Virus record (IMG/VR): IMGVR_UViG_3300025450_000063
Span: 1-37,176 of that record
Reading direction: 5' to 3' (one strand)
DNA from: a virus
Length of the DNA stretch: 37,176 nucleotides
This document shows, one piece after another, positions 10,386 through 32,394 of the stretch (position 1 is its first letter; each line of letters begins with the position of its first letter). A program made the position numbers and the translations under genes. A model generated the notes under the pieces. The model was not told the origin of the DNA. It searched no databases and saw only the letters and a program-made list of their open reading frames with translations.

Positions 10386-11498
10386 TTATAAACTAAATCC
10401 GTTAAATGAATTACTATCAACATCTTGTTTGGTGCCGCCGATAACATATGATGAGATTTCAGTTTCCTGTGGAGCAACCTGAACTTCTGCGCCAGCAATC
10501 CACTTTTGTGTCCAAGGTAACGGATTATTCTTTGTAGGATATGGCTGACCAAGACCAACTGCTTGCATACGCTTGTTGGCAATAAACTCAACATATTCAG
10601 CAAGTAGTTGATAGTTTAGTCCAATCATGGAGCCATCCTTGAACAAATATTTTGCCCATTCTTTTTCTTGTTTGACTGCATCATCAAACAACTTGATAGC
10701 ATCTTCACGACATTCTACTTCAATCTTGGCATAATCAGGGTCATCTTTTGGCAAAATCTTCAAGAGCGTTTGTGTGCCAGCAAGATGCAGATTTTCATCA
10801 CGAGCGATTAACTTAATAATCTTTGCATTGCCTTCCATCTTTTTCAATTCAGCAAATGCCCAACTACAAGCAAATGAAACATAAAAACGAACACCTTCAA
10901 GAATATTAACGCTCATAAGTGCAAGCCACAGTGCTTTCTTGTGCTCATATGAATCATAACCTGGTCTAGGACCAACACCATTAATGGCAAGATCATTGTT
11001 CATGTTAATTAGATTATCATATAGAGCAGTAATATCACCAGCACAATCAACAATTTCTTGAATATCCATCATCTCATCAAATATCTTTGATGGATTGGCA
11101 TACACATTGCGAATGATATGTGTATACGAACGAGAGTGAATAGTTTCACTGAATGTCCAAGTAGTAATCCAAGTTTCCAATTCGGGCAGCGAACAAATAG
11201 GACCAAATGCTACTGCTGGCGCACGACCTTGCACACTATCAAGCAGAATTTGGCGCTTTAAATTACTTGTAAAGATATGCTGTTCATTCGCCGTCAAGTC
11301 TTTGAAGTCCTTGGCATCACGAAGAATATCAATTTCTTCGGGTCTCCAAAAAAATCCTAACTGGCGGTCTGTAAGTTTATCAAATTGTTTATATTTTAAG
11401 GTATCATAACGCTGAATACTGACACCACCATGTGGATCAAGGAACGCAAGTGATTTAGTATGATCTGTTTTATCGTTGGCATCAAATACTGTACTCAT
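10386..11498 (-). CDS. nrdB: Ribonucleotide reductase class Ia, beta subunit
   Basis: This 370-residue protein makes the tyrosyl radical for reduction of ribonucleoside diphosphates. All di-iron ligands are visible: Asp87, Glu118, His121, Glu201, Glu235 (RDENLHL) and His238. The radical tyrosine is Tyr125 in the conserved SETIHSRSYTHII. The C-terminal tail FNGFSL resembles the tail that docks onto NrdA. The start codon overlaps the stop of the HNH gene (ATGA), and its ribosome binding site (AGGAAG) lies inside the end of that gene, so nrdB now depends on an insert for translation initiation context. Confidence 0.97.
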   Translation of the reverse strand: MSTVFDANDKTDHTKSLAFLDPHGGVSIQRYDTLKYKQFDKLTDRQLGFFWRPEEIDILRDAKDFKDLTANEQHIFTSNLKRQILLDSVQGRAPAVAFGPICSLPELETWITTWTFSETIHSRSYTHIIRNVYANPSKIFDEMMDIQEIVDCAGDITALYDNLINMNNDLAINGVGPRPGYDSYEHKKALWLALMSVNILEGVRFYVSFACSWAFAELKKMEGNAKIIKLIARDENLHLAGTQTLLKILPKDDPDYAKIEVECREDAIKLFDDAVKQEKEWAKYLFKDGSMIGLNYQLLAEYVEFIANKRMQAVGLGQPYPTKNNPLPWTQKWIAGAEVQVAPQETEISSYVIGGTKQDVDSNSFNGFSL

Positions 11499-12190
11499 TT
11501 TACATATCTTCCTTTTTCATCTCTATTATGTTTCATTCTACCTTTATACCATCCTTCTGGTTGACTTTCCATATATTTTTCTTCTGTGCCATTATTATAC
11601 CATTTTTTACCAAGAGAATGTTTAGAATGATTGTTTTTAACTTTTTCAATCATTGCATAACTGTTGTTGCCTATGTATGGAATTGGGTCAATGCCATTTT
11701 TATAAAATTTTAAGTAAAGATGTCTAGTAATTCCAGTTTCTTCTTTAAGTTCTTTATATCCCTTATACATTTTTCCATTATATTCTATTTCCAACATTTT
11801 TGCAAAACCTAAATTATTTTTCCATTCCTTGCTTTTTATTATACCTTTACGTGCCTTACTCATTTTTTGTTTAGCAGCATCGGTATGCTTGTATCCAAGA
11901 TTATCTATTTTGACTCTTTCGGCGTGTTTGCGTCTTACCCATCCATAATTTTTATTATTCCTATTTGCCATCATATTTGCGGCATATAGTAATTTTATAT
12001 TATCTGGATACATTTTTAATAACAATAAATGTGCTATATAATGTTCCTCTGCGGTTAGCGCCACAAGATTATCCTTTATATCAGTCCCGCCCATACATCT
12101 AGGAATGATATGGTGATTTTCAGTGTATGTTGTAAGAGAGCGATTTTTCGCTCTCTCTATCAAATTGTTATAAATGGAATAATAGTTCAT
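11495..12190 (-). CDS. Free-standing HNH homing endonuclease between nrdA and nrdB
   Basis: The ATG at 12190 is preferred (GGAG 6 bases before); an ATG at 12205 lies within the upstream repeat and has no ribosome site. The 231 residues include an HNH core: ENHHIIPRCMGG (about 24-35), DNLVALTAEEHYIAHLLL (about 40-57), then two Asn-rich and basic repeat-like regions (KHTDAAKQKMSKARKG, a NUMOD-type DNA-binding helix) and a tail with LGKKWYNNGTEEK. T4 has a homing endonuclease gene (mobE) at the same place between nrdA and nrdB. It is AT-rich and not needed for reductase function. It overlaps nrdB by 4 bases. Confidence 0.88.
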   Translation of the reverse strand: MNYYSIYNNLIERAKNRSLTTYTENHHIIPRCMGGTDIKDNLVALTAEEHYIAHLLLLKMYPDNIKLLYAANMMANRNNKNYGWVRRKHAERVKIDNLGYKHTDAAKQKMSKARKGIIKSKEWKNNLGFAKMLEIEYNGKMYKGYKELKEETGITRHLYLKFYKNGIDPIPYIGNNSYAMIEKVKNNHSKHSLGKKWYNNGTEEKYMESQPEGWYKGRMKHNRDEKGRYVK

Positions 12191-12202
12191 ACGAATCTCC
12201 GT

Positions 12203-12240
12203 CATACGTATTTATATTTATCCATCATACGTATTTATAT
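12203..12240 (-). repeat. Tandem duplicated late promoter box before the HNH gene
   Basis: Two copies of ATATAAATACGTATGAYGGA lie 23 bases apart on the minus strand. Each contains a perfect TATAAATA late box (12239-12232 and 12216-12209). The first overlaps the nrdA stop codon (12235-12237). The copy nearest the gene ends in CGGAG, which serves as its ribosome site. Confidence 0.75.
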
Positions 12241-14541
12241 TGTGCAGGACTCGCATGCGTCTTGATCTTCAAGCGTAGCAAAAATCACTTCCGATGGTTT
12301 TTGTTCAACAAACTTATTGACATCAATTTCACCTTGGCCATCAAAATTATTAAAATAATACAAGGTTTTGATACCATATTTGTAACATAACAACAAATGA
12401 CCAATCATAACACTCATTGGAATCTTTTCATCCGCATAGAATGTTGGATTATATGAAGTATTAGTTGAAATACTCTGATCAATATACTTTTGTAGAACCG
12501 CAACTAATTTCAAATAACCTTCTGGTGATTTTTGATCCCATAGAAGTTCATACTTGTTCTTTAACTTACGGAACTCTGGAACAACTTGCTTCAACACACC
12601 ATGCTTGCTTTGCTTGATAGAAATTAAGCTGCGTGGTGGCTCAATGCCATTTGTAGCATTTGCAACCTGTGCAGATGTTTCTGCTGGCATAAGTGCCATA
12701 AGAGTTGAATTGCGGATACCATGTTCACGAAGACTTGCACGAAGTGATGCCCAATCCATACGCTCCACATGTGGCACAAGTTCATCAACTTCACGCTTAT
12801 ATGTGTCAATAGGCAGAATGCCCGAACCATACTTTGTTTCATCGCTCTTTGGCGCAGCGCCACGTTCAATAGCAAGTTGGTTACTTGCCTTGATAAGATA
12901 ATAAGACCATGCTTCTGCATACTCATCAACTAATGCAAGCGCACGTGGGTCACTATAACTCATGTCATTCTTTGCAAGGAAGTAAGCAAAGTTAATGATA
13001 CCAACACCCAATGGACGACGATTCATTGTACTTAACTGTGCTGCAATGACTGGATAGTTCTGGTAGTCAAGTAGCGCATCAAGCCCACGAACAGCCAAAT
13101 CGCACATCTTTTCAAAATCTTTTGGTTCTTTAACATTGCCCCAATTGATTGCGCTTAGAGTGCAAAGTGAGATTTCACCTTCTTCATCAAAGATATGATT
13201 TAGTGGCTTTGTTGGTAGTGCAATCTCGGCACACAGATTGCTTTGCTTGATTACAGCCTTGCTTTCAATAAATGCACCGTGCGTGTTGGCATGATCGACA
13301 TTCATAAGATAGATGCGACCTGTATTCTTGCGCTCTTCCATGAATTGCGAGAACAAATCAATTGCTTTGTAGGTTTTCTTGCGAATCTTTGGATTCTTCT
13401 CTGCCTTCTCATACAGTTCCTTGAACTTATCTTGATCAGCAAAGAACGCATCATACAAACCTGGTACATCACTTGGCGAGAAGCAAGTAATATCTCCGCC
13501 GCTTAGCAGACGCTCATACATAAGTTTGTTAAACTGCACACCATAATCCATCTGGCGAATACGATTATCTTCGGTTCCCTTATTGTTCTTGAGAACCAAT
13601 AAGTCTTCTACTTCATAATGCCATAGCGGATAATAAAGAGTAGCAGCACCGTTGCGAACGCCGCCCTGTGAGCATGATCTAACTGCTGCTTGGAACATCT
13701 TATAGAATGGAATTAAGCCTGTGTGAGAGGCATCGCCCTTGCGAATGGCACTACCAATAGCACGAATAGAACCCGCTCCAATACCGATGCCAGCCTTTTG
13801 TGAGACATACTTAACAATAGCACTGGATGTGGCATTAATGCTGTCTAAACTGTCGCCAGTTTCAATTAACACGCATGAAGAGAACTGACGCTGTGGTGTG
13901 CGAAGACCTGCCATGATCGGAGTTGGAAGAGAAATATCATGCTTTGAAATAGCATCATAATAATCACGAACATACTTTAGGCGAGTTTCTTGTGGATACT
14001 TGGCAAATAGGGTTGCGGCAATAAGAGCATAAGCAACCTGTGGCGTTTCCATAATTTCACCAGTAACACGATTCTGTACCAAATACTTGCCACGAAGTTG
14101 TTCCATAGCAACATAGGTAAGCGTCATATCACGCTCGTGTTCAACGAACTTATTAATGCTTGCCCATTCTTCTTCGGTATAATCGCTTAATAGATTAGAA
14201 TCATAGAATCCACTTTCTACATTCTTCTTGATAATATCAATTAGCGGAAGTGGATGATAGTCATTATATACTTGCTTGCGAAGATGATAATTTACAAGAC
14301 GACCTGCGACATATTGGTAGTTAGGCGCTTCTTCGCTAATAAGATCAGCAGCAGCCTTGATTAGGGTTTCTTGTAGTTCGCTGGTTTTAATGTTATTATA
14401 AAATTGGATTTGACTACGCAATTCTAATTCACTTGCACTTACGCCGCTTAGATTTTCAGTTGCCCAAAATACTACCTTGTGAAGTTTTTCAATATCCAAT
14501 GGTTCCTTGCGACCATCACGCTTAATAACATTGATTGGCAT
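12235..14541 (-). CDS. nrdA: Ribonucleotide reductase class Ia, alpha subunit
   Basis: The 768-residue catalytic subunit is full length and uninterrupted. Residues 1-90 form the ATP-cone region (KRDGRKEPLDIEKLHKVV, LRSQIQFY). Active-site residues are visible: Cys223 and Cys460 (redox pair), Asn435, Cys437 (thiyl) and Glu439 in SNLCAEI, the radical-path YY in KTLYYF, and the C-terminal shuttle cysteines in ACESCTI. It reduces ribonucleoside diphosphates with NrdB and glutaredoxin. An AGAGAG site precedes the ATG. No late box is seen upstream, which fits expression before virion genes. Confidence 0.98.
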   Translation of the reverse strand: MPINVIKRDGRKEPLDIEKLHKVVFWATENLSGVSASELELRSQIQFYNNIKTSELQETLIKAAADLISEEAPNYQYVAGRLVNYHLRKQVYNDYHPLPLIDIIKKNVESGFYDSNLLSDYTEEEWASINKFVEHERDMTLTYVAMEQLRGKYLVQNRVTGEIMETPQVAYALIAATLFAKYPQETRLKYVRDYYDAISKHDISLPTPIMAGLRTPQRQFSSCVLIETGDSLDSINATSSAIVKYVSQKAGIGIGAGSIRAIGSAIRKGDASHTGLIPFYKMFQAAVRSCSQGGVRNGAATLYYPLWHYEVEDLLVLKNNKGTEDNRIRQMDYGVQFNKLMYERLLSGGDITCFSPSDVPGLYDAFFADQDKFKELYEKAEKNPKIRKKTYKAIDLFSQFMEERKNTGRIYLMNVDHANTHGAFIESKAVIKQSNLCAEIALPTKPLNHIFDEEGEISLCTLSAINWGNVKEPKDFEKMCDLAVRGLDALLDYQNYPVIAAQLSTMNRRPLGVGIINFAYFLAKNDMSYSDPRALALVDEYAEAWSYYLIKASNQLAIERGAAPKSDETKYGSGILPIDTYKREVDELVPHVERMDWASLRASLREHGIRNSTLMALMPAETSAQVANATNGIEPPRSLISIKQSKHGVLKQVVPEFRKLKNKYELLWDQKSPEGYLKLVAVLQKYIDQSISTNTSYNPTFYADEKIPMSVMIGHLLLCYKYGIKTLYYFNNFDGQGEIDVNKFVEQKPSEVIFATLEDQDACESCTI

Positions 14542-23340: not shown

Positions 23341-23589
23341 TTAACGGCTTTCGTCTATCTTTCGCAATCCACGAATAAATTTAGCAGGTTCTTGCGCACG
23401 AATACTATTTAAAAGTCGGCGTTCAAGTTCATCTGCTTCTGGAGTATCATAAGTTTCACGTATTTGATTAATTAGATTGATAGCACTATTAATAATATGG
23501 TTAGCACGGCTTTCTAATACTAATCCAGTATTTTTACCAACACTTAAAGTGCTTAGTTCATCTAATATAGAACGTGATTGTTTGCGCAA
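23341..23589 (-). CDS. Small helical conserved phage protein
   Basis: The 82-residue product is all-helical and charged (RSILDELSTLS, ESRANHIINSAINLI, ELERRLLNSI). I know similar small proteins from marine T4-like phages but not their function. It follows the radical SAM gene by 31 bases in the same direction and may share its message. Confidence 0.5.
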   Translation of the reverse strand: MRKQSRSILDELSTLSVGKNTGLVLESRANHIINSAINLINQIRETYDTPEADELERRLLNSIRAQEPAKFIRGLRKIDESR

Positions 23590-23620: not shown

Positions 23621-24631
23621 TTATGCTTGTGGAACTTTTCCGCACATTTTTACACATGTTGTAAGAGCGCCATCTTCGTAGCTATCACGAGTCCAAGCAC
23701 TTTCAACTTTACTAAACCAACGCATGCATGTTTCTAAATCATATTCGTGCAAACTATACTGTGACACCAATGGTTTAATTTGTTGATTTAGTTTTCCATT
23801 CCAACCTTTATCATATTTTTCTGGATTAAAACCCATAAAGCAGCATGGATATACTTTGCCATCTGATGCAATGTATATCGATTTTTGATTCTTAGAAAAA
23901 CAAGAATATGTTGTACCAGGTACATGTGGCGAGATAAAAAATTCTTTATTCCGATTACTTTTGTCAGCAATAATATTTTCAATTACTGTATCGCCAGCCC
24001 AATCGCCCATGATGTGGGATAATTTTCCATCACGATCAAATACTGGACCAACGCATCTACCATCATCTATTAATAAAAAGTTAGCAAAACCTAAACTTTT
24101 AGAAAGTTCTCTGCATTGTTCTATTTGGTGTGAATTATGGTCAAATTTTATCATTTTCCATATAGCATGCCCACCATTATCCATAAATGTTTTTGCATTT
24201 TGCAAAATTTTATTATAATCAGTATCTTGACGATAAAGATGGTGAGTGTCTTCAAGACCATCTAAACAAAATTGAACTTCTGTATAACTAAACTGTGCCA
24301 AGTCTGCCCAAAATGCTGCATTTCTTGCGCTACCATTTGTGCTTATTTCTATTCTTAATTTTTCATTGTGCGATTTAAAATATTGAATAATATCCAATGA
24401 TTCTAAATTTGAAGTAAAATCACCAAGATTTCCATTGACCAATATATGTTTTAATTGTGAAATAAACTGCGGACTAAAAGATTTTTTAACAAGTTCTAAC
24501 GAAAGATTTGTTTCTTCGTATCCACTATTAAATGGATAGCCAAATAAATTACGCGGACACTGCGGACAACGAGCATTGCACAGCGAACTAAATTCCATGT
24601 GTAAATGGACTACATCTTGTATTGAAATCAT
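23621..24631 (-). CDS. Radical SAM protein with C-terminal cysteine cluster
   Basis: The 336 residues open with the radical SAM motif CNARCPQC (Cys18, Cys22, Cys25), which binds a 4Fe-4S cluster and S-adenosylmethionine. The next strand elements (VNGNLGDF, LRIEISTNG, VQFCLDGL) fit the barrel. The C-terminal part has more cysteines (YSCFS, YPCCFMGF, CMRW, CVKMCGK), in the style of SPASM or Twitch auxiliary cluster domains. Such enzymes modify peptides, sugars or RNA; the substrate here is unknown and no precursor peptide is obvious nearby. It lies 8 bases downstream of gp41 in the replication block. Confidence 0.8.
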   Translation of the reverse strand: MISIQDVVHLHMEFSSLCNARCPQCPRNLFGYPFNSGYEETNLSLELVKKSFSPQFISQLKHILVNGNLGDFTSNLESLDIIQYFKSHNEKLRIEISTNGSARNAAFWADLAQFSYTEVQFCLDGLEDTHHLYRQDTDYNKILQNAKTFMDNGGHAIWKMIKFDHNSHQIEQCRELSKSLGFANFLLIDDGRCVGPVFDRDGKLSHIMGDWAGDTVIENIIADKSNRNKEFFISPHVPGTTYSCFSKNQKSIYIASDGKVYPCCFMGFNPEKYDKGWNGKLNQQIKPLVSQYSLHEYDLETCMRWFSKVESAWTRDSYEDGALTTCVKMCGKVPQA

Positions 24632-24639
24632 GATAGTAT

Positions 24640-26034
24640 TTAAGTTTTCTTTATGTTAGCTAACATTTGTTTTAACTTAGTACTATTGACATCTGAAACT
24701 ATTTTGCCACGTTCTTCTGGCTCTGCTGCTGGTATCACAGTACTCTTATTTTTTACACCGTCAAATATACTGCTAACTGGCTTCTTAAATGTCATGCCTT
24801 CACCATCATCTGGCAAGTCACGGATACGCAAACTATCAACATCAAACTCAAGTTCAACCTTTTGCCCAACACCACTAGATGAACGAGTTTTCATAATCTG
24901 TAACTGATATTTGCCATGCTCACGCATACTGCGAGAGGTAAAGATACCAAATAGATTATCAGCAGTGTTAATCTTAGAAATACCACCACTAATGTGACTA
25001 TGGTCAAACTCTACTTCTTCAACACTCGCACGATTCAACTGTGATGCGGTGACCAATAAAATTTGCATTTCCTTGGCAAAGTTACGAATTTCTTCGGAGA
25101 CATATTTGTCCTTAACGAACAAATCACTTGGACTAACCTTGGCACTAACAGGCATGAGCAAGTCAAGATAATCGATCATAATAAAATCAACCTTACGACC
25201 AGTACGAATTTGAAGTTCCTTTACATAAGAACGAACATCGTTGATATTGCTTTGGGCTGGTAGATACTTAATCTGTAATCTACCACTCTTCTTGCCCATC
25301 ATGACAACCTTCATATCAACATTATCAATGTCTTTGAAGATATCCTTGCTGGCAATATTGGTTACCATACTATCGATACGCATAGAGGTAAGTTCTTCGC
25401 TCAATTCAAGCGTAACATATACACCATTGAGACCAAGTTGCATCCAATTAACTGCAATGTTCTGCATGAACAGTGACTTACCGCTACCTGAACCGCCAGC
25501 AAAGATGTTAAGTTCTCCCTTGTTGAACCCACCAAATAATTTCTGATCAAGTGCATTCCACCCCGTCGAAACCTGACCATTGTTATCTTTGATTTTCATC
25601 AAACGTGCTTTAGGATCAGCAAAGTAATCGGTACCAAGGTCTTTGGTTAGACTGATTTGAACAGCGTCTTTAATAAGTTTTTCAACTGGACCAAAATCAC
25701 CTTTCTCTAGCAAATCTGCGGCGGCAAGAATGGCTCGTTCAAGTTCTTTCTGCTTAGTAAAGTCTTCAAACTCTTCCAAAAACCAAGAGGTATGATCATC
25801 AGTCATACCAGGAACTTGGGCAAAGGTGTTATTGGTAGCAGCATTAATCTGCTCAACAATAGGCATAACAGTATGCTTTTCACAGTGTTCCTTGATGAAC
25901 TCTGCTGCACCTTTTAAACTACGGTCAAAATTATTTGGGTTAAAGATGTTTTGGACACGCACATAACTTTGCGGGTCACTTAACATCATTTCAACGAATA
26001 ACTTCTGTATTGCGCTATCATATGTTTTTGCCAT
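24640..26034 (-). CDS. 41: Replicative DNA helicase, DnaB family (gp41)
   Basis: The 464-residue protein has an N-terminal helical domain (1-150) and a RecA-type core: Walker A AGGSGSGKS (179-187, Lys186), Glu in TLELSEE (208-214), Walker B FIMIDYLDLL (284-293, Asp288) and TASQLNR. It unwinds DNA at the fork as a hexamer and works with primase gp61, encoded just upstream in the same direction. Length matches T4 gp41 (475). No late box is seen, fitting early or middle expression. Confidence 0.93.
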   Translation of the reverse strand: MAKTYDSAIQKLFVEMMLSDPQSYVRVQNIFNPNNFDRSLKGAAEFIKEHCEKHTVMPIVEQINAATNNTFAQVPGMTDDHTSWFLEEFEDFTKQKELERAILAAADLLEKGDFGPVEKLIKDAVQISLTKDLGTDYFADPKARLMKIKDNNGQVSTGWNALDQKLFGGFNKGELNIFAGGSGSGKSLFMQNIAVNWMQLGLNGVYVTLELSEELTSMRIDSMVTNIASKDIFKDIDNVDMKVVMMGKKSGRLQIKYLPAQSNINDVRSYVKELQIRTGRKVDFIMIDYLDLLMPVSAKVSPSDLFVKDKYVSEEIRNFAKEMQILLVTASQLNRASVEEVEFDHSHISGGISKINTADNLFGIFTSRSMREHGKYQLQIMKTRSSSGVGQKVELEFDVDSLRIRDLPDDGEGMTFKKPVSSIFDGVKNKSTVIPAAEPEERGKIVSDVNSTKLKQMLANIKKT

Positions 26035-26058: not shown

Positions 26059-26796
26059 TCAATTGTCACTATTATTGTTGATCCACAATTTAAATAAAGA
26101 TGCAAAATCTATGTGTGCCATTTCTGCATAATGTCCTTTTTCAAATTTTTCATAGTTATGCTTGCTTGCCCATTGATTAAATCCTAAATTTTCTGGTAGA
26201 AAAAATTTATTTTTGTCAATTTTAGAATAGAAGATATCCGTATCACTGTTAATACTGTTAATATTTTTTCTAATAGTTTCATATTCTGAAAAATAATCAA
26301 TCGTGCTTGTAAAATAAAACTTTTTGTTCATTAATTTTAAGTATTGTTGAGTCAATAATATATTTTTAAAATATTCATTAAACAATATCTTTTTCTCAAA
26401 TACTAAAGTTTCATAGACATTTTGTAAATTTTTTAATTTTGATTTGTCTTTGAATTTTTGTGAAACTAGTTTGTATATTTTAAAATCTTGATCATAAAGA
26501 TTAATACCACTTGGAGAAAAATTTACAGGAAAATTATTTTTATAAAAAGTTATTCTTTCTAAAAATGACCACATAACAACAACTAAATCAATGTCTGTTA
26601 AATCAGAAGACAAAATTTTAGTCATTATTTGACCACAACCTGCTCCAGATATTCCGTAATTAAATATGGTAGCATCTTTATATAAATGATTTGTCCAAGT
26701 ATGATTGCTTGGTTGAACAATGTTGTACAGCGATGCATCTGGAAATTCATCGCCAAACGTACAAGAACATCCAAATGTTGCTATTTTTAAAACCAT
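26059..26796 (-). CDS. SGNH-hydrolase-like protein
   Basis: The 245 residues begin IATFGCSCTFGDEF, a block I variant (Gly9, Ser11) of SGNH esterases, with a Gly-Asn region (GISGAGCGQIM, 48-58) and a possible catalytic His in GHYAEMAHIDF near 225-235. It is Asn/Lys/Phe-rich and more AT-rich than its neighbours. It lies between gp61 and gp41, overlapping the primase by 10 bases, and so looks like an accessory insert in the replication operon. Possible role: deacylation of polysaccharide; this is inference. Confidence 0.55.
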   Translation of the reverse strand: MVLKIATFGCSCTFGDEFPDASLYNIVQPSNHTWTNHLYKDATIFNYGISGAGCGQIMTKILSSDLTDIDLVVVMWSFLERITFYKNNFPVNFSPSGINLYDQDFKIYKLVSQKFKDKSKLKNLQNVYETLVFEKKILFNEYFKNILLTQQYLKLMNKKFYFTSTIDYFSEYETIRKNINSINSDTDIFYSKIDKNKFFLPENLGFNQWASKHNYEKFEKGHYAEMAHIDFASLFKLWINNNSDN

Positions 26797-27785
26797 TTCT
26801 TAGATACCAATTGAATTTTAAGTTTGTTAGTTTGCACACTATCTAAAATACTGCGCATCGTGAACAATGTGCCGTATTTTGCAACAGCATCTGCCGTATC
26901 TTTAATACCCATTTCCCAATCAGGAAATGCTACGCCCCAACCATACTTTAGCGCAGCCTCTACCATTGCTCCACCAGCCTTGTCACGGTCAGGGACAACA
27001 ATGATATCACGGTCAAGTGTTTCAATAACTTGAGCCTGACCATCATTGATTTCATTTGAACAAATTGCAAGCGCACCAATGGCAACGGCGTCTAACAATC
27101 CTTCTACAACAATACAAAACTTTGCATCTTTAGGCTGTTTATCATATCCCCATATCATATTGCTTGGATAGTTAGAGAAGTATTTTATCTTCTTCTTGCC
27201 ATCCTCAAACAGCCGACCACTAAAACCCATTGGTCTCTTTTTCCAAGTAAATGGAACAAGCACACGGTTTCTCAATGATGCGTCATCGGTCCAATAAAAC
27301 TCAGACAACTTATCACCAAACCCTCTAGCATCAAGATAATGAATAGCAGCTTCAAGAGAATTATAATCGTCTTCATTGATATATCCATCATTAAGCCAAC
27401 TAGTAACAGGACGACCGGGACATGGGTCACGAGGTTCATAAGTTGGCAACTCACGAGGTTCAACCTTTGGAGCATCAGGTGTAGATTGTGCCAATGCAAA
27501 TAAACTAAGACGAGAAATAGTATCATCGCCCATGCCAAGCCATGACATCCAACGACGCATCTTATATGATAAACGATTACCAGGTTGCCAAGAGGCAGTA
27601 TAATGACAGTTAAAACAGTGTGCAGTGATACCACCCTCTGGTGATGGCATAATACCACCACGCCCACGAGTATCTACTGCATGACCATTATTATGGCAGC
27701 AAACAGCATTGAAACTTATCCAACCGCTAGGCGTGGATTTGCGCTTCCATGGCAGATGCTGCATGATTTGGTCAGTAATTTCCAT
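26787..27785 (-). CDS. 61: DNA primase (gp61)
   Basis: The 332 residues have an N-terminal zinc-binding part (Cys29/Cys30 with nearby His31 or His35, and Cys57, Cys60) and a TOPRIM domain: IVVEGLLDAVAIGALA (225-240, Glu228) and VVPDRDKAG (263-271, Asp266, Asp268). It makes RNA primers for lagging-strand synthesis, with gp41. Length matches T4 gp61 (342). It starts 30 bases after the baseplate-like gene. Confidence 0.92.
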   Translation of the reverse strand: MEITDQIMQHLPWKRKSTPSGWISFNAVCCHNNGHAVDTRGRGGIMPSPEGGITAHCFNCHYTASWQPGNRLSYKMRRWMSWLGMGDDTISRLSLFALAQSTPDAPKVEPRELPTYEPRDPCPGRPVTSWLNDGYINEDDYNSLEAAIHYLDARGFGDKLSEFYWTDDASLRNRVLVPFTWKKRPMGFSGRLFEDGKKKIKYFSNYPSNMIWGYDKQPKDAKFCIVVEGLLDAVAIGALAICSNEINDGQAQVIETLDRDIIVVPDRDKAGGAMVEAALKYGWGVAFPDWEMGIKDTADAVAKYGTLFTMRSILDSVQTNKLKIQLVSKKWF

Positions 27786-30548: not shown

Positions 30549-31442
30549 TTATTCATTTACAATATCATTAATAATCTGAGATGCCTCATCACGAGAAATG
30601 ATATCAAGTTCTGTCCAATAATTTATAAGTTGCTGTTTAACTGAATCATTCATTTCTTTAATACTTCTGTAATGAATTGCTGATACCATTATATCAAACT
30701 TATTAGTATAGGTAACATTTAAGAAATCTTTCAATGTCATACTGTCATCAAGAAAATGTAGGTTTGAATCCCATAAACCAGTGCTAAAAGGATTAGTGAA
30801 ATAATAATATTCTTCTAAACTACCATATTTTGATATAATATATGCTTGCATTAAATAAAATTCATTTGTACTTGCTGGCACAAAATTACCAAAAAAACTA
30901 TCAAGTTCTAAGTTAAAATTCTGCACAAGTACTGATTCTAATTCTTCAAGAGTTTGTTTCTTAATTAAAAACGGTGTATTAATAGACATTGTTGGAGTAT
31001 CAACTGATACATTGAATAAATCAAATGCATATTTTTTAATAGGATATTCTGGTAACGTGTCTTGGGTTATTGTGTGACTATAGCAAGCATGAAATTTATT
31101 ATCTATTACAAAATCTGCGCTCGTGATGTTACGTATAAAGAAATTTTTTGAATCAAGTATTATAATATTTTCAGCAGTACATACTTGATGTGCAGATAAT
31201 TTCAAAACTTGTTGTCGCACATATCCATCTATCAACCTGCCATTATATAAATCTTTATAGTTGTAAAATTTTATCCGATCATTAAACATACCAAAATTTA
31301 ATACTAGTAGTTGCGCATCACAATTATTAACAATATGAATATTTGTTATTGGTAAGTTCTGACAAAATTTACCAATACTATTGGCAAATATTTTTAATAG
31401 TGGATAGTCATTTTCGTATGCTACGACGAATAAATCAAACAT
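30549..31442 (-). CDS. Glycosyltransferase-like protein, copy 2
   Basis: The 297 residues start MFDLFVVAYENDYPLLKIFA, an alpha/beta strand-helix opening of GT-A type proteins, and contain IIILDSKNFFI, in the place of a DxD-like metal site. It is clearly related to the gene just upstream: same opening, same ILDxKNFFI block, same 'MxINTPFLIKKQTLEELE' block and the same 'HYRSIK' block near the end. The start overlaps the previous stop by 8 bases. Sugar transfer (to DNA, polysaccharide or virion) is inference; a DUF6492-type protein is the closest class I can name. Confidence 0.5.
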   Translation of the reverse strand: MFDLFVVAYENDYPLLKIFANSIGKFCQNLPITNIHIVNNCDAQLLVLNFGMFNDRIKFYNYKDLYNGRLIDGYVRQQVLKLSAHQVCTAENIIILDSKNFFIRNITSADFVIDNKFHACYSHTITQDTLPEYPIKKYAFDLFNVSVDTPTMSINTPFLIKKQTLEELESVLVQNFNLELDSFFGNFVPASTNEFYLMQAYIISKYGSLEEYYYFTNPFSTGLWDSNLHFLDDSMTLKDFLNVTYTNKFDIMVSAIHYRSIKEMNDSVKQQLINYWTELDIISRDEASQIINDIVNE

Positions 31443-32394
31443 GATTTTTCACATCATTTATTATTTTAGTTGCTTCATCGCCATAACATAGTTCTAGTTC
31501 AATCCAAAAATTTTTTAATTCAGATAATAGTTCCTCAGACATTATTCTAATAGACCTATAATGCACACTACTGCAAAAAATTCCACCAACCCAATCTAAA
31601 AATGCGGCTTGCATTAAACTTTTTCTAATTTTAACTTCTGTATGTGGAATATAAGTCCAATGAAAATCTTCCCAATGTTCAACATCTACTGGCCATATTC
31701 CAGTGCAATAATTTCCTTGCTGCGGAGTATCATCTGTAAAAAAGAAATATTCTTTAAAATCACTATATTTTTTTAATATGAAAGATTGGATTAACATAAA
31801 CTCATTTGTTTTATTTGGAGCATCGTATCCAATAATATCTTGTGGCAAAAGATTAAAATTTTCTTTAATGTAATCTACACATTCTATTAGAGTTTGTCGT
31901 TTAATAAAAAATGGTGTTCGCAACATAATTTGCTGACTATTGGGCGGAAGTTCAAATAATTTGTGCGTGAATATTTTATTTTCTAACCAAAATTCTGGAG
32001 CAATATCATATACTGCTCGTAATTTTCCTTCACTATTCATTACTTCTTCTAATCTGACAGGATTAATAAAAAAATTCTTAGCATCAAGAATCATTATATT
32101 TTCACTGTGACATAATTTATAAGCATATAATTTTAAAATTTGCTGAACATTATATCCATTTACCCATGGACCATCATATATTTCACTGAAATCATGTATG
32201 CTTATGCGTTCATTAAATGAACCAAAATACAATCTCATGCTATTAATTGCATCAGACATATTATTATTTTGATTATTGCTTACAATTACAATTTGGTTGA
32301 GCGGAAATTTATTGCAAAATTTATTAATGCTTCTTCCAAGAACTTTTAGCAGAGGAAAATCATCTTTGCATACAACAACAAATATATCAAACAT
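31435..32394 (-). CDS. Glycosyltransferase-like protein, copy 1
   Basis: The 319 residues share the layout of the next gene: MFDIFVVVCKDDFPLLKVLG opening, IMILDAKNFFI, MLRTPFFIKRQTLIECV, and SVHYRSIRIM near the C-terminus. The pair is best explained by tandem duplication followed by divergence. Both are strongly AT-rich. No signal peptide or membrane segment is present. A late-like box 4 bases before the ATG would start transcription too late to make a leader, so it may be chance. Confidence 0.5.
   Translation of the reverse strand: MFDIFVVVCKDDFPLLKVLGRSINKFCNKFPLNQIVIVSNNQNNNMSDAINSMRLYFGSFNERISIHDFSEIYDGPWVNGYNVQQILKLYAYKLCHSENIMILDAKNFFINPVRLEEVMNSEGKLRAVYDIAPEFWLENKIFTHKLFELPPNSQQIMLRTPFFIKRQTLIECVDYIKENFNLLPQDIIGYDAPNKTNEFMLIQSFILKKYSDFKEYFFFTDDTPQQGNYCTGIWPVDVEHWEDFHWTYIPHTEVKIRKSLMQAAFLDWVGGIFCSSVHYRSIRIMSEELLSELKNFWIELELCYGDEATKIINDVKNHV

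Follow-up and report, generated by a model that had tools for sequence, protein, structure and literature searches.

A helicase-linked, twitch-type radical SAM enzyme of phages: conservation, gene company and possible substrates

Why do phages carry a radical SAM enzyme gene directly behind the gene of their replicative helicase, and on which substrate might such an enzyme act? The question is raised by a gene of the window, i.e. the whole stretch of viral DNA analysed here, a giant-phage fragment of 37,176 nucleotides. It has long been noticed that phages can carry radical SAM genes, and the helicase-linked twitch family described below offers a handle on them at a fixed site beside a replication gene. 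From the sequence of the window, the original prediction had read this gene as a radical SAM protein with an auxiliary cysteine cluster that could modify a nucleotide, a peptide or an RNA during infection, with the small protein encoded next to it as a possible partner or substrate.

Cysteines, family and predicted fold of the enzyme

The gene (23621..24631, minus strand, ATG start), supported by its ORF and by family and fold matches, encodes 336 residues. In order to examine its motifs, we aligned 36 distinct sequences, corresponding to 48 of the 51 viral loci found by scanning plus the window, with duplicates removed. The putative [4Fe-4S] motif C18-x3-C22-x2-C25 (CNARCPQC, codons at 24557..24580, minus strand) is invariant in 36/36 and lies in a partial TIM barrel for which the model and the PDB matches agree with a radical SAM fold, so that the CxxxCxxC radical SAM protein of the original prediction is confirmed. 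GNxGD, also invariant in the 36 sequences, occupies the place of the usual glycine-rich motif; we take it to stand in for GGE, and the alignment with the MoaA profile agrees. A further stretch, WKMIKFDHN, is invariant among the aligned sequences and reads WKMIPFDHN in locus L153, which lies outside this set, and 55 positions altogether are invariant over the 35 aligned viral sequences.

The cysteines assigned by alignment to the auxiliary cluster are C244 (23900..23902), the first of a C-x13-G-x4-C element, the doublet C263 and C264 (PCC, 23840..23845) and the last pair C326-x3-C330 (23642..23656), all on the minus strand. C244-x13-G-x4-C263 and C264 are invariant in 36/36, and C326-x3-C330 is kept in 35/36, the single exception, L043, having lost its C-terminal part at a contig end. 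According to the available part of PMC6231123, the seven-cysteine motif of SPASM domains is CX9-15GX4C..CX2CX5CX3C..C. In our alignment CX13GX4C and a later Cx3C are present and the CX2CX5CX3C block is absent. Because the auxiliary cysteines suffice for one cluster only and this block is missing, the pattern rules out a full SPASM enzyme and the protein is, as judged from its cysteines, of the twitch type, with enough of them to ligate one auxiliary cluster completely, as in BtrN. The auxiliary cluster proposed earlier thus survives as a site for one cluster (C244, C263, C264, C326 and C330) and not as a SPASM domain with two.

The enzyme matches PHROG 21308 (E 3e-19). Its match to Pfam Radical_SAM (E 2.7e-5, 24.8 bits) lies under the cut-off of 29.5, and that to Pfam SPASM (23.2 bits) lies over the cut-off of 21.5, yet spans profile positions 1-23 of 67 only. 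Thirteen NCBIfam models were found at E<=0.1, none near its own cut-off, and assignment to a named NCBIfam family was rejected: the best was TIGR04317 (tungsten cofactor oxidoreductase maturase) with 49.6 bits versus a cut-off of 380, NF033640 (N_Twi_rSAM) scored 34.5 versus 170, the MoaA, viperin and BlsE models were not among the 13, and no curated peptide-maturase model reached its cut-off. Against solved structures, the single sequence gave by phmmer one weak, unrelated match (E 0.59), and the profile gave MoaA as best match (E 4.8e-8), followed by NifB and, weakly, YydG/EpeE.

Relatives with 38-100% identity were found at the 51 loci of the viral contig scan, and a profile scan showed that at least 585 viral stretches encode a relative (E<=1e-3); the scan of genome contigs gave 27 loci, one of which (L079) is phage-like, and a tblastn search of 50,697 phage records gave matches in 3 Campylobacter phage records only. 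Using FastTree, we clustered 189 sequences, the best match per locus: 67 helicase-linked viral, 96 other viral and 26 cellular. The window copy falls within a clade of 93 viral sequences (support 0.91) that contains 63/67 helicase-linked copies and 0/26 cellular ones, four helicase-linked copies being placed elsewhere; by this tree the enzyme belongs to an uncharacterised branch so far seen in viruses. In two contigs, L042 and L050, the relative lies away from the helicase locus and is flanked by two gene families common to both contigs (clusters 52 and 53). Among four copies at 74-76% identity, dN is 0.16-0.18 versus a dS of 1.20-1.44, and for three further copies 0.27-0.31 versus 1.19-1.40, dS being near saturation in both cases. 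From cysteines, predicted fold and selection, we propose that the gene encodes an active twitch-type radical SAM enzyme.

An AlphaFold2 model built with 35 sequences reached a pLDDT of 90.3 and a pTM of 0.89. Compared with the PDB by VIA-align, it gave Z-scores of 18.4 for SuiB, 17.3 for SkfB, 17.0 for BlsE, 16.9 for anSME, 16.3 for MoaA, 15.6 for DesII, 15.5 for PqqE, 15.0 for viperin and 14.6 for BtrN, and the matches to SuiB, SkfB, BlsE, anSME, MoaA, DesII and BtrN cover most of the chain. Foldseek placed BlsE first (E 1.1e-10) and also listed SpeY, with TM-scores near 0.5. The model contains no RRE or other additional peptide-binding domain, the first strand comprising residues 9-12 and the cysteine motif beginning at 18; some peptide-modifying enzymes lack an RRE or have it carried apart. 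Since enzymes acting on sugars, peptides and nucleotides are mixed among the matches, the fold leaves the substrate unnamed, and within the SPASM/twitch subfamily sequence networks hardly predict function (PMC6231123, available in part).

Helicase linkage and the cargo junction

The gene upstream (24640..26034, minus strand) encodes a 464-residue replicative helicase of the DnaB/gp41 type (PHROG 19, DnaB-like, 219 bits), for which the name gp41 is valid as a family name, and the gap of 8 bases (24632..24639, minus strand, from the ORF ends) is exactly as originally described. Further upstream on the same strand, a 245-residue protein (26059..26796) is cargo between helicase and primase (26787..27785, PHROG match). 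By eye it resembles SGNH hydrolases, with GxS near its N-terminus, and no significant family match was found for it; two proteins at other loci match DUF6071 or GDSL slightly under cut-off. Two DUF6492 proteins identified by family match, which we take to be glycosyltransferase-like, are encoded in tandem as paralogs at 30549..31442 and 31435..32394 (minus strand). At 11495-14541 of the window, a gene for the large subunit of ribonucleotide reductase adjoins a homing endonuclease ORF.

We surveyed gene positions at 185 viral loci, none contained in another and mostly fetched by the enzyme gene, so that the sample is biased towards it. Both genes are visible at 100 of these, the enzyme being downstream and on the same strand in 100/100 and the direct neighbour of the helicase in 77/100. 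Counted by distinct enzymes, the order and strand hold for 76/76 and direct neighbourhood for 55/76; the enzyme starts between -20 and +40 bases from the helicase stop in 47/76, and in 29/76 the two genes overlap by four bases (ATGA, GTGA or TTGA), the window showing the 8-base gap instead. From this arrangement we infer that the enzyme is probably made together with the helicase. Protein distances of the enzyme and of the helicase run parallel over 58 distinct loci (Mantel r 0.81, 0/2000 permutations), a comparison in which relatedness among loci is not otherwise controlled.

On the other side of the enzyme, the 82-residue protein (23341..23589, minus strand, TTG start) belongs to a virion-protein family (PHROG 11854, head and packaging). 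By tblastn it matches 56 phage records, RefSeq duplicates included, and of the 40 that were listed all but two exceed 280 kb; the same method found the enzyme in none of the 56. The gene directly follows the helicase in PA5oct and Vibrio phage 2.275.O, whereas Sinorhizobium phage Phosso has a single small gene between the two. We then considered 80 loci retrieved with the helicase as sole query: helicase and 82-residue gene are both seen in 46, with the enzyme between them in 8, other cargo in 25 and nothing in 13; three more loci show the enzyme before the contig ends, and the 82-residue gene was not found in 31/80. Helicase and 82-residue gene thus stay paired whether or not the enzyme lies between them: their junction takes up cargo, of which the enzyme is most plausibly one inserted example, and the small protein does not serve it as a dedicated substrate. 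With a virion family, 56 records and 38/46 junctions lacking the enzyme, the proposed role of this neighbour as partner or substrate was therefore abandoned.

Cargo found either here or between primase and helicase includes extra radical SAM genes, an amidinotransferase, DnaE-like genes and proteins placed by eye only. Two extra radical SAM genes lie beside the enzyme in L018 (NF033640, 257-288 bits) and one in L041 (229), all over the cut-off of 170. In L223 the enzyme adjoins an amidinotransferase whose best solved match is an inosamine-phosphate amidinotransferase (E 2.5e-5); this identity is confirmed for L223 only, the corresponding reading in L051 (332 kb) having no Pfam match, and L051 carries a carbamoyltransferase 3 kb from the enzyme. 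Two further cargo readings were made by eye, a '2OG oxygenase-like' protein in L118, with no Pfam, PHROG or PDB match, and a 'sulfotransferase-like' protein with no significant match. A DnaE-type polymerase III alpha of about 566 residues is encoded at the helicase/82-residue junction by L092:5084-6784 and 13 further members of its ORF cluster, L092 being on the opposite strand.

Gene company of large relatives and candidate substrates

Within the window, a fragment of 37 kb, the only possible cassette genes found are the two for DUF6492 proteins and the SGNH-like candidate. We examined nine large contigs picked by size, of which six carry the enzyme itself (489-541 bits) and three a more distant relative (230-283 bits). 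All nine contain PF04055 matches (11, 15, 17, 4, 8, 2, 10, 11 and 18) and an A-type Fe-S carrier; a carbamoyltransferase is present in 7/9, and a SAM synthetase and a PNP_UDP_1 nucleosidase are each present in 4/9 and not found in the other five, some of which exceed 275 kb. Nucleosidases of the PNP_UDP_1 type can remove 5'-deoxyadenosine. For comparison, nine other records were considered (three isolates and six contigs fetched by the helicase, one of which, L168, also has the enzyme): radical SAM genes occur in 7/9, the Fe-S carrier in 4/9, and carbamoyltransferase, SAM synthetase and nucleosidase in 1/9 each, none of these five types being found in PA5oct and Vibrio phage 2.275.O. Since 7/9 and 4/9 of the comparison records share them, radical SAM genes and the Fe-S carrier are traits of a wider phage group and are not tied to the enzyme gene. 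In two contigs that encode the identical enzyme (60 and 36 kb) it is the sole PF04055 match, and 2-3 matches occur in each of four contigs (40-67 kb) encoding related enzymes; all six are fragments.

Several of these genes are grouped in cassettes. The stretch from 27 to 39 kb of the record behind L138 contains five radical SAM genes, a nucleosidase, a SAM synthetase and a carbamoyltransferase; L312 and L313 have five radical SAM genes in a row, all five of L312 passing NF033640, and L314 has five with other genes interspersed. Radical SAM cassettes of phages also contain a DegT/StrS aminotransferase (L312:12747-13847), a UDP-glucose-dehydrogenase-type protein (L311:957-2183) and, in L310, an NAD-dependent epimerase together with a radical SAM protein that is probably of the B12 type, its B12 domain being under cut-off. 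In a 131-kb relative (enzyme 76% identical) a SAM synthetase and a carbamoyltransferase lie within 5 kb of each other, where a nucleotide-sugar dehydratase was recognised by eye; because about 37 kb separate this pair from the helicase-linked copy, their link to the enzyme is one of co-occurrence. The window copy may likewise be tied to a distant cassette.

A family of about 350 residues adjoins twitch radical SAM genes in phage cassettes (L312:10124-11230, L313:9804-10904, L314:11497-12555, L051:11510-12580 and L310:7710-8762), with the motifs NHDxxNxLHxxFExLQG and IRQLNxLCHExESL. No Pfam match was found for the two members scanned and no PHROG match for the one searched; the predicted model is of middling quality (pLDDT 73.7), with no significant solved-structure match (best E 0.98). 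Among cultured jumbo phages, Sinorhizobium phage Phosso (PV764938.1) has four radical SAM matches at 185889-192368.

Taken with the fold, these neighbours lead us to favour, tentatively, a phage tailoring pathway in which the enzyme oxidises a sugar or aminosugar by two electrons. The cluster held by C18, C22 and C25 would split SAM into methionine and a 5'-deoxyadenosyl radical, which would abstract a single hydrogen atom from a substrate of polar character. Judged by conservation, this substrate may be bound by Y133, R134, H165, N166 and R192, which the aligned cellular homologs also have, and by H130, K159, K162 and D164, which are shared by the 35 viral sequences of the alignment. The second electron would then pass to the auxiliary cluster (C244, C263, C326 and C330), and the substrate would thereby be oxidised by two electrons, as in BtrN. 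This substrate would most likely be a sugar, an aminosugar or a cyclitol-like group of a phage-encoded pathway tailoring a glycan or a small molecule, the other steps of which may be encoded elsewhere in genomes that, among relatives, reach about 330 kb.

The gene company of the enzyme and of its paralogs speaks more for the tailoring of sugars or small molecules than for nucleotides, peptides or RNA. For the sugar reading we count the amidinotransferase of L223, the carbamoyltransferase of L051, the NF033640 enzymes of L018 and L041, the DegT/StrS, UDP-glucose-dehydrogenase-type and epimerase genes of the cassettes and the DUF6492 pair of the window, as well as glycosyltransferases close to two of the cellular homologs, that of Paraburkholderia fynbosensis (L071) and that of a Hyphomicrobiales MAG (L060), a glycan context not seen by eye at most other cellular homologs inspected, e.g. 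Microcoleus. Against it, SuiB, SkfB and anSME score level with or above the sugar enzymes; four cysteine ligands are no proof of a dehydrogenase; and, for the pathway, the contigs with an identical enzyme show a single radical SAM match and the window is nearly free of cassette genes.

A peptide or protein of phage or host, receiving a cross-link, a formylglycine or an epimerised residue, is a somewhat unlikely substrate: SuiB, SkfB and anSME are among the nearest folds and many SPASM enzymes act on peptides (PMC9012708, available in part), but the model begins at the radical SAM core and has no domain for peptide binding, the cut-off of no curated peptide-maturase model is reached, and the 82-residue neighbour is found without the enzyme. 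We regard as unlikely a modification of a nucleotide, a DNA base or an RNA timed with replication, for which the direct helicase linkage (55/76), the overlapping genes (29/76) and the fold relatives MoaA and viperin, which act on nucleotides, would speak, the first also by its sequence match (E 4.8e-8). However, the enzyme is one of several cargo types at a junction that is empty in 13/46 cases, and thymidylate synthase-type genes, possibly plain thymidylate synthases, occur in 3/9 large contigs. A queuosine-type pathway was rejected, tRNA-guanine transglycosylase being absent from 18/18 records searched, many of them fragments. From these counts and the missing peptide-binding domain, the substrate classes originally suggested have received little positive support.

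A sugar or nucleotide sugar could also be the substrate of a non-oxidative reaction (decarboxylation, deamination or epimerisation, as by BlsE or DesII). BlsE leads the Foldseek matches, DesII is close by VIA-align, and cassettes hold DegT aminotransferase and UDP-glucose-dehydrogenase-type genes, but the full set of auxiliary cysteines is kept, a site that serves as electron acceptor in SuiB and, probably, BtrN (PMC9012708, available in part), and with TM-scores near 0.5 the families cannot be told apart; on balance, we judge such a reaction rather improbable. A neutral passenger, which a variable cargo site might harbour, was already disfavoured and appears very improbable: 55 positions are invariant in 35 sequences, dN is well under dS, enzyme distances parallel those of the helicase, and the sole full-length copy with an inner stop (behind L153) has it at the C-terminal end, past the last conserved cysteine.

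Beyond the favoured sugar oxidation, we can only speculate, as an unlikely but larger picture, that jumbo phages in water maintain a nearly self-sufficient radical SAM line building a sugar-like compound not known from cells, with which phage DNA, virion or infected-cell surface would be coated. Such a line would comprise SAM synthetase, A-type Fe-S carrier, a nucleosidase possibly clearing 5'-deoxyadenosine, up to eighteen radical SAM domains and carbamoyl-, amidino-, amino- and nucleotide-sugar enzymes, the helicase-linked enzyme being a widely kept step co-made with the replication machinery. Large relatives do bring Fe-S delivery, and several add SAM synthesis and a nucleosidase. The product of the enzyme would reveal what giant phages use such costly chemistry for, and may be novel either as an enzyme reaction or as a glycan modification that shields phage DNA or the infected cell.

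Comparison with known systems

In the open-access literature searched, available to us in part, we found no description and no tested function of the helicase-linked twitch family, and no tested function of the multi-gene radical SAM sets of phages. Like BtrN (butirosin) and SpeY (spectinomycin), the enzyme combines a radical SAM core with a C-terminal domain having cysteines for one auxiliary cluster, and the BtrN match extends over 214 residues (Z 14.6) with 14% identity; unlike them, it has other neighbours and a predicted activity, and it shows no close sequence relation to either. With BlsE and DesII it shares the fold (Z 17.0 and 15.6), whereas identity is 18% and 12%, and with SuiB, SkfB and anSME it also shares the fold (Z 16.9-18.4). 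A second auxiliary cluster is present in SuiB and anSME and an RRE peptide-binding domain in SkfB and SuiB, as stated in the available part of PMC6231123; the phage enzyme differs from these three in having neither a second auxiliary site nor an RRE. NF033640 proteins, members of which adjoin the enzyme in L018 and L041, likewise combine radical SAM and twitch domains, but there the twitch domain is N-terminal, as read from sequences and family name, and the enzyme falls far below the cut-off of that model (34.5 versus 170).

Among phages, Campylobacter phages CP220 and CPt10 encode 11 and 12 radical SAM proteins, and a module of theirs includes an amidinotransferase (PMC2853527, available in part). 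These radical SAM clusters resemble those described here, with 27% identity over 54% of the window enzyme, but they belong to other phages and to another locus, no helicase being annotated within the 12.5-kb stretch viewed. The T4-like ocean virus TARA_ERS488813_N000010, for which the accessible part of PMC5332604 reports 12 radical SAM genes and an A-type Fe-S carrier, shows the same association of both within one phage. Radical SAM cassettes in a variable region distinguish two pelagimyophages from each other, and freshwater pelagimyophages are described as lacking them (PMC7029224, available in part). Aeromonas giant phage 332-Vera, with eight radical SAM genes inside its structural genes (PMC12390700, likewise), is assigned to the Chimallinviridae. 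These four reports show that radical SAM-rich phages, including some with an Fe-S carrier, were therefore already known.
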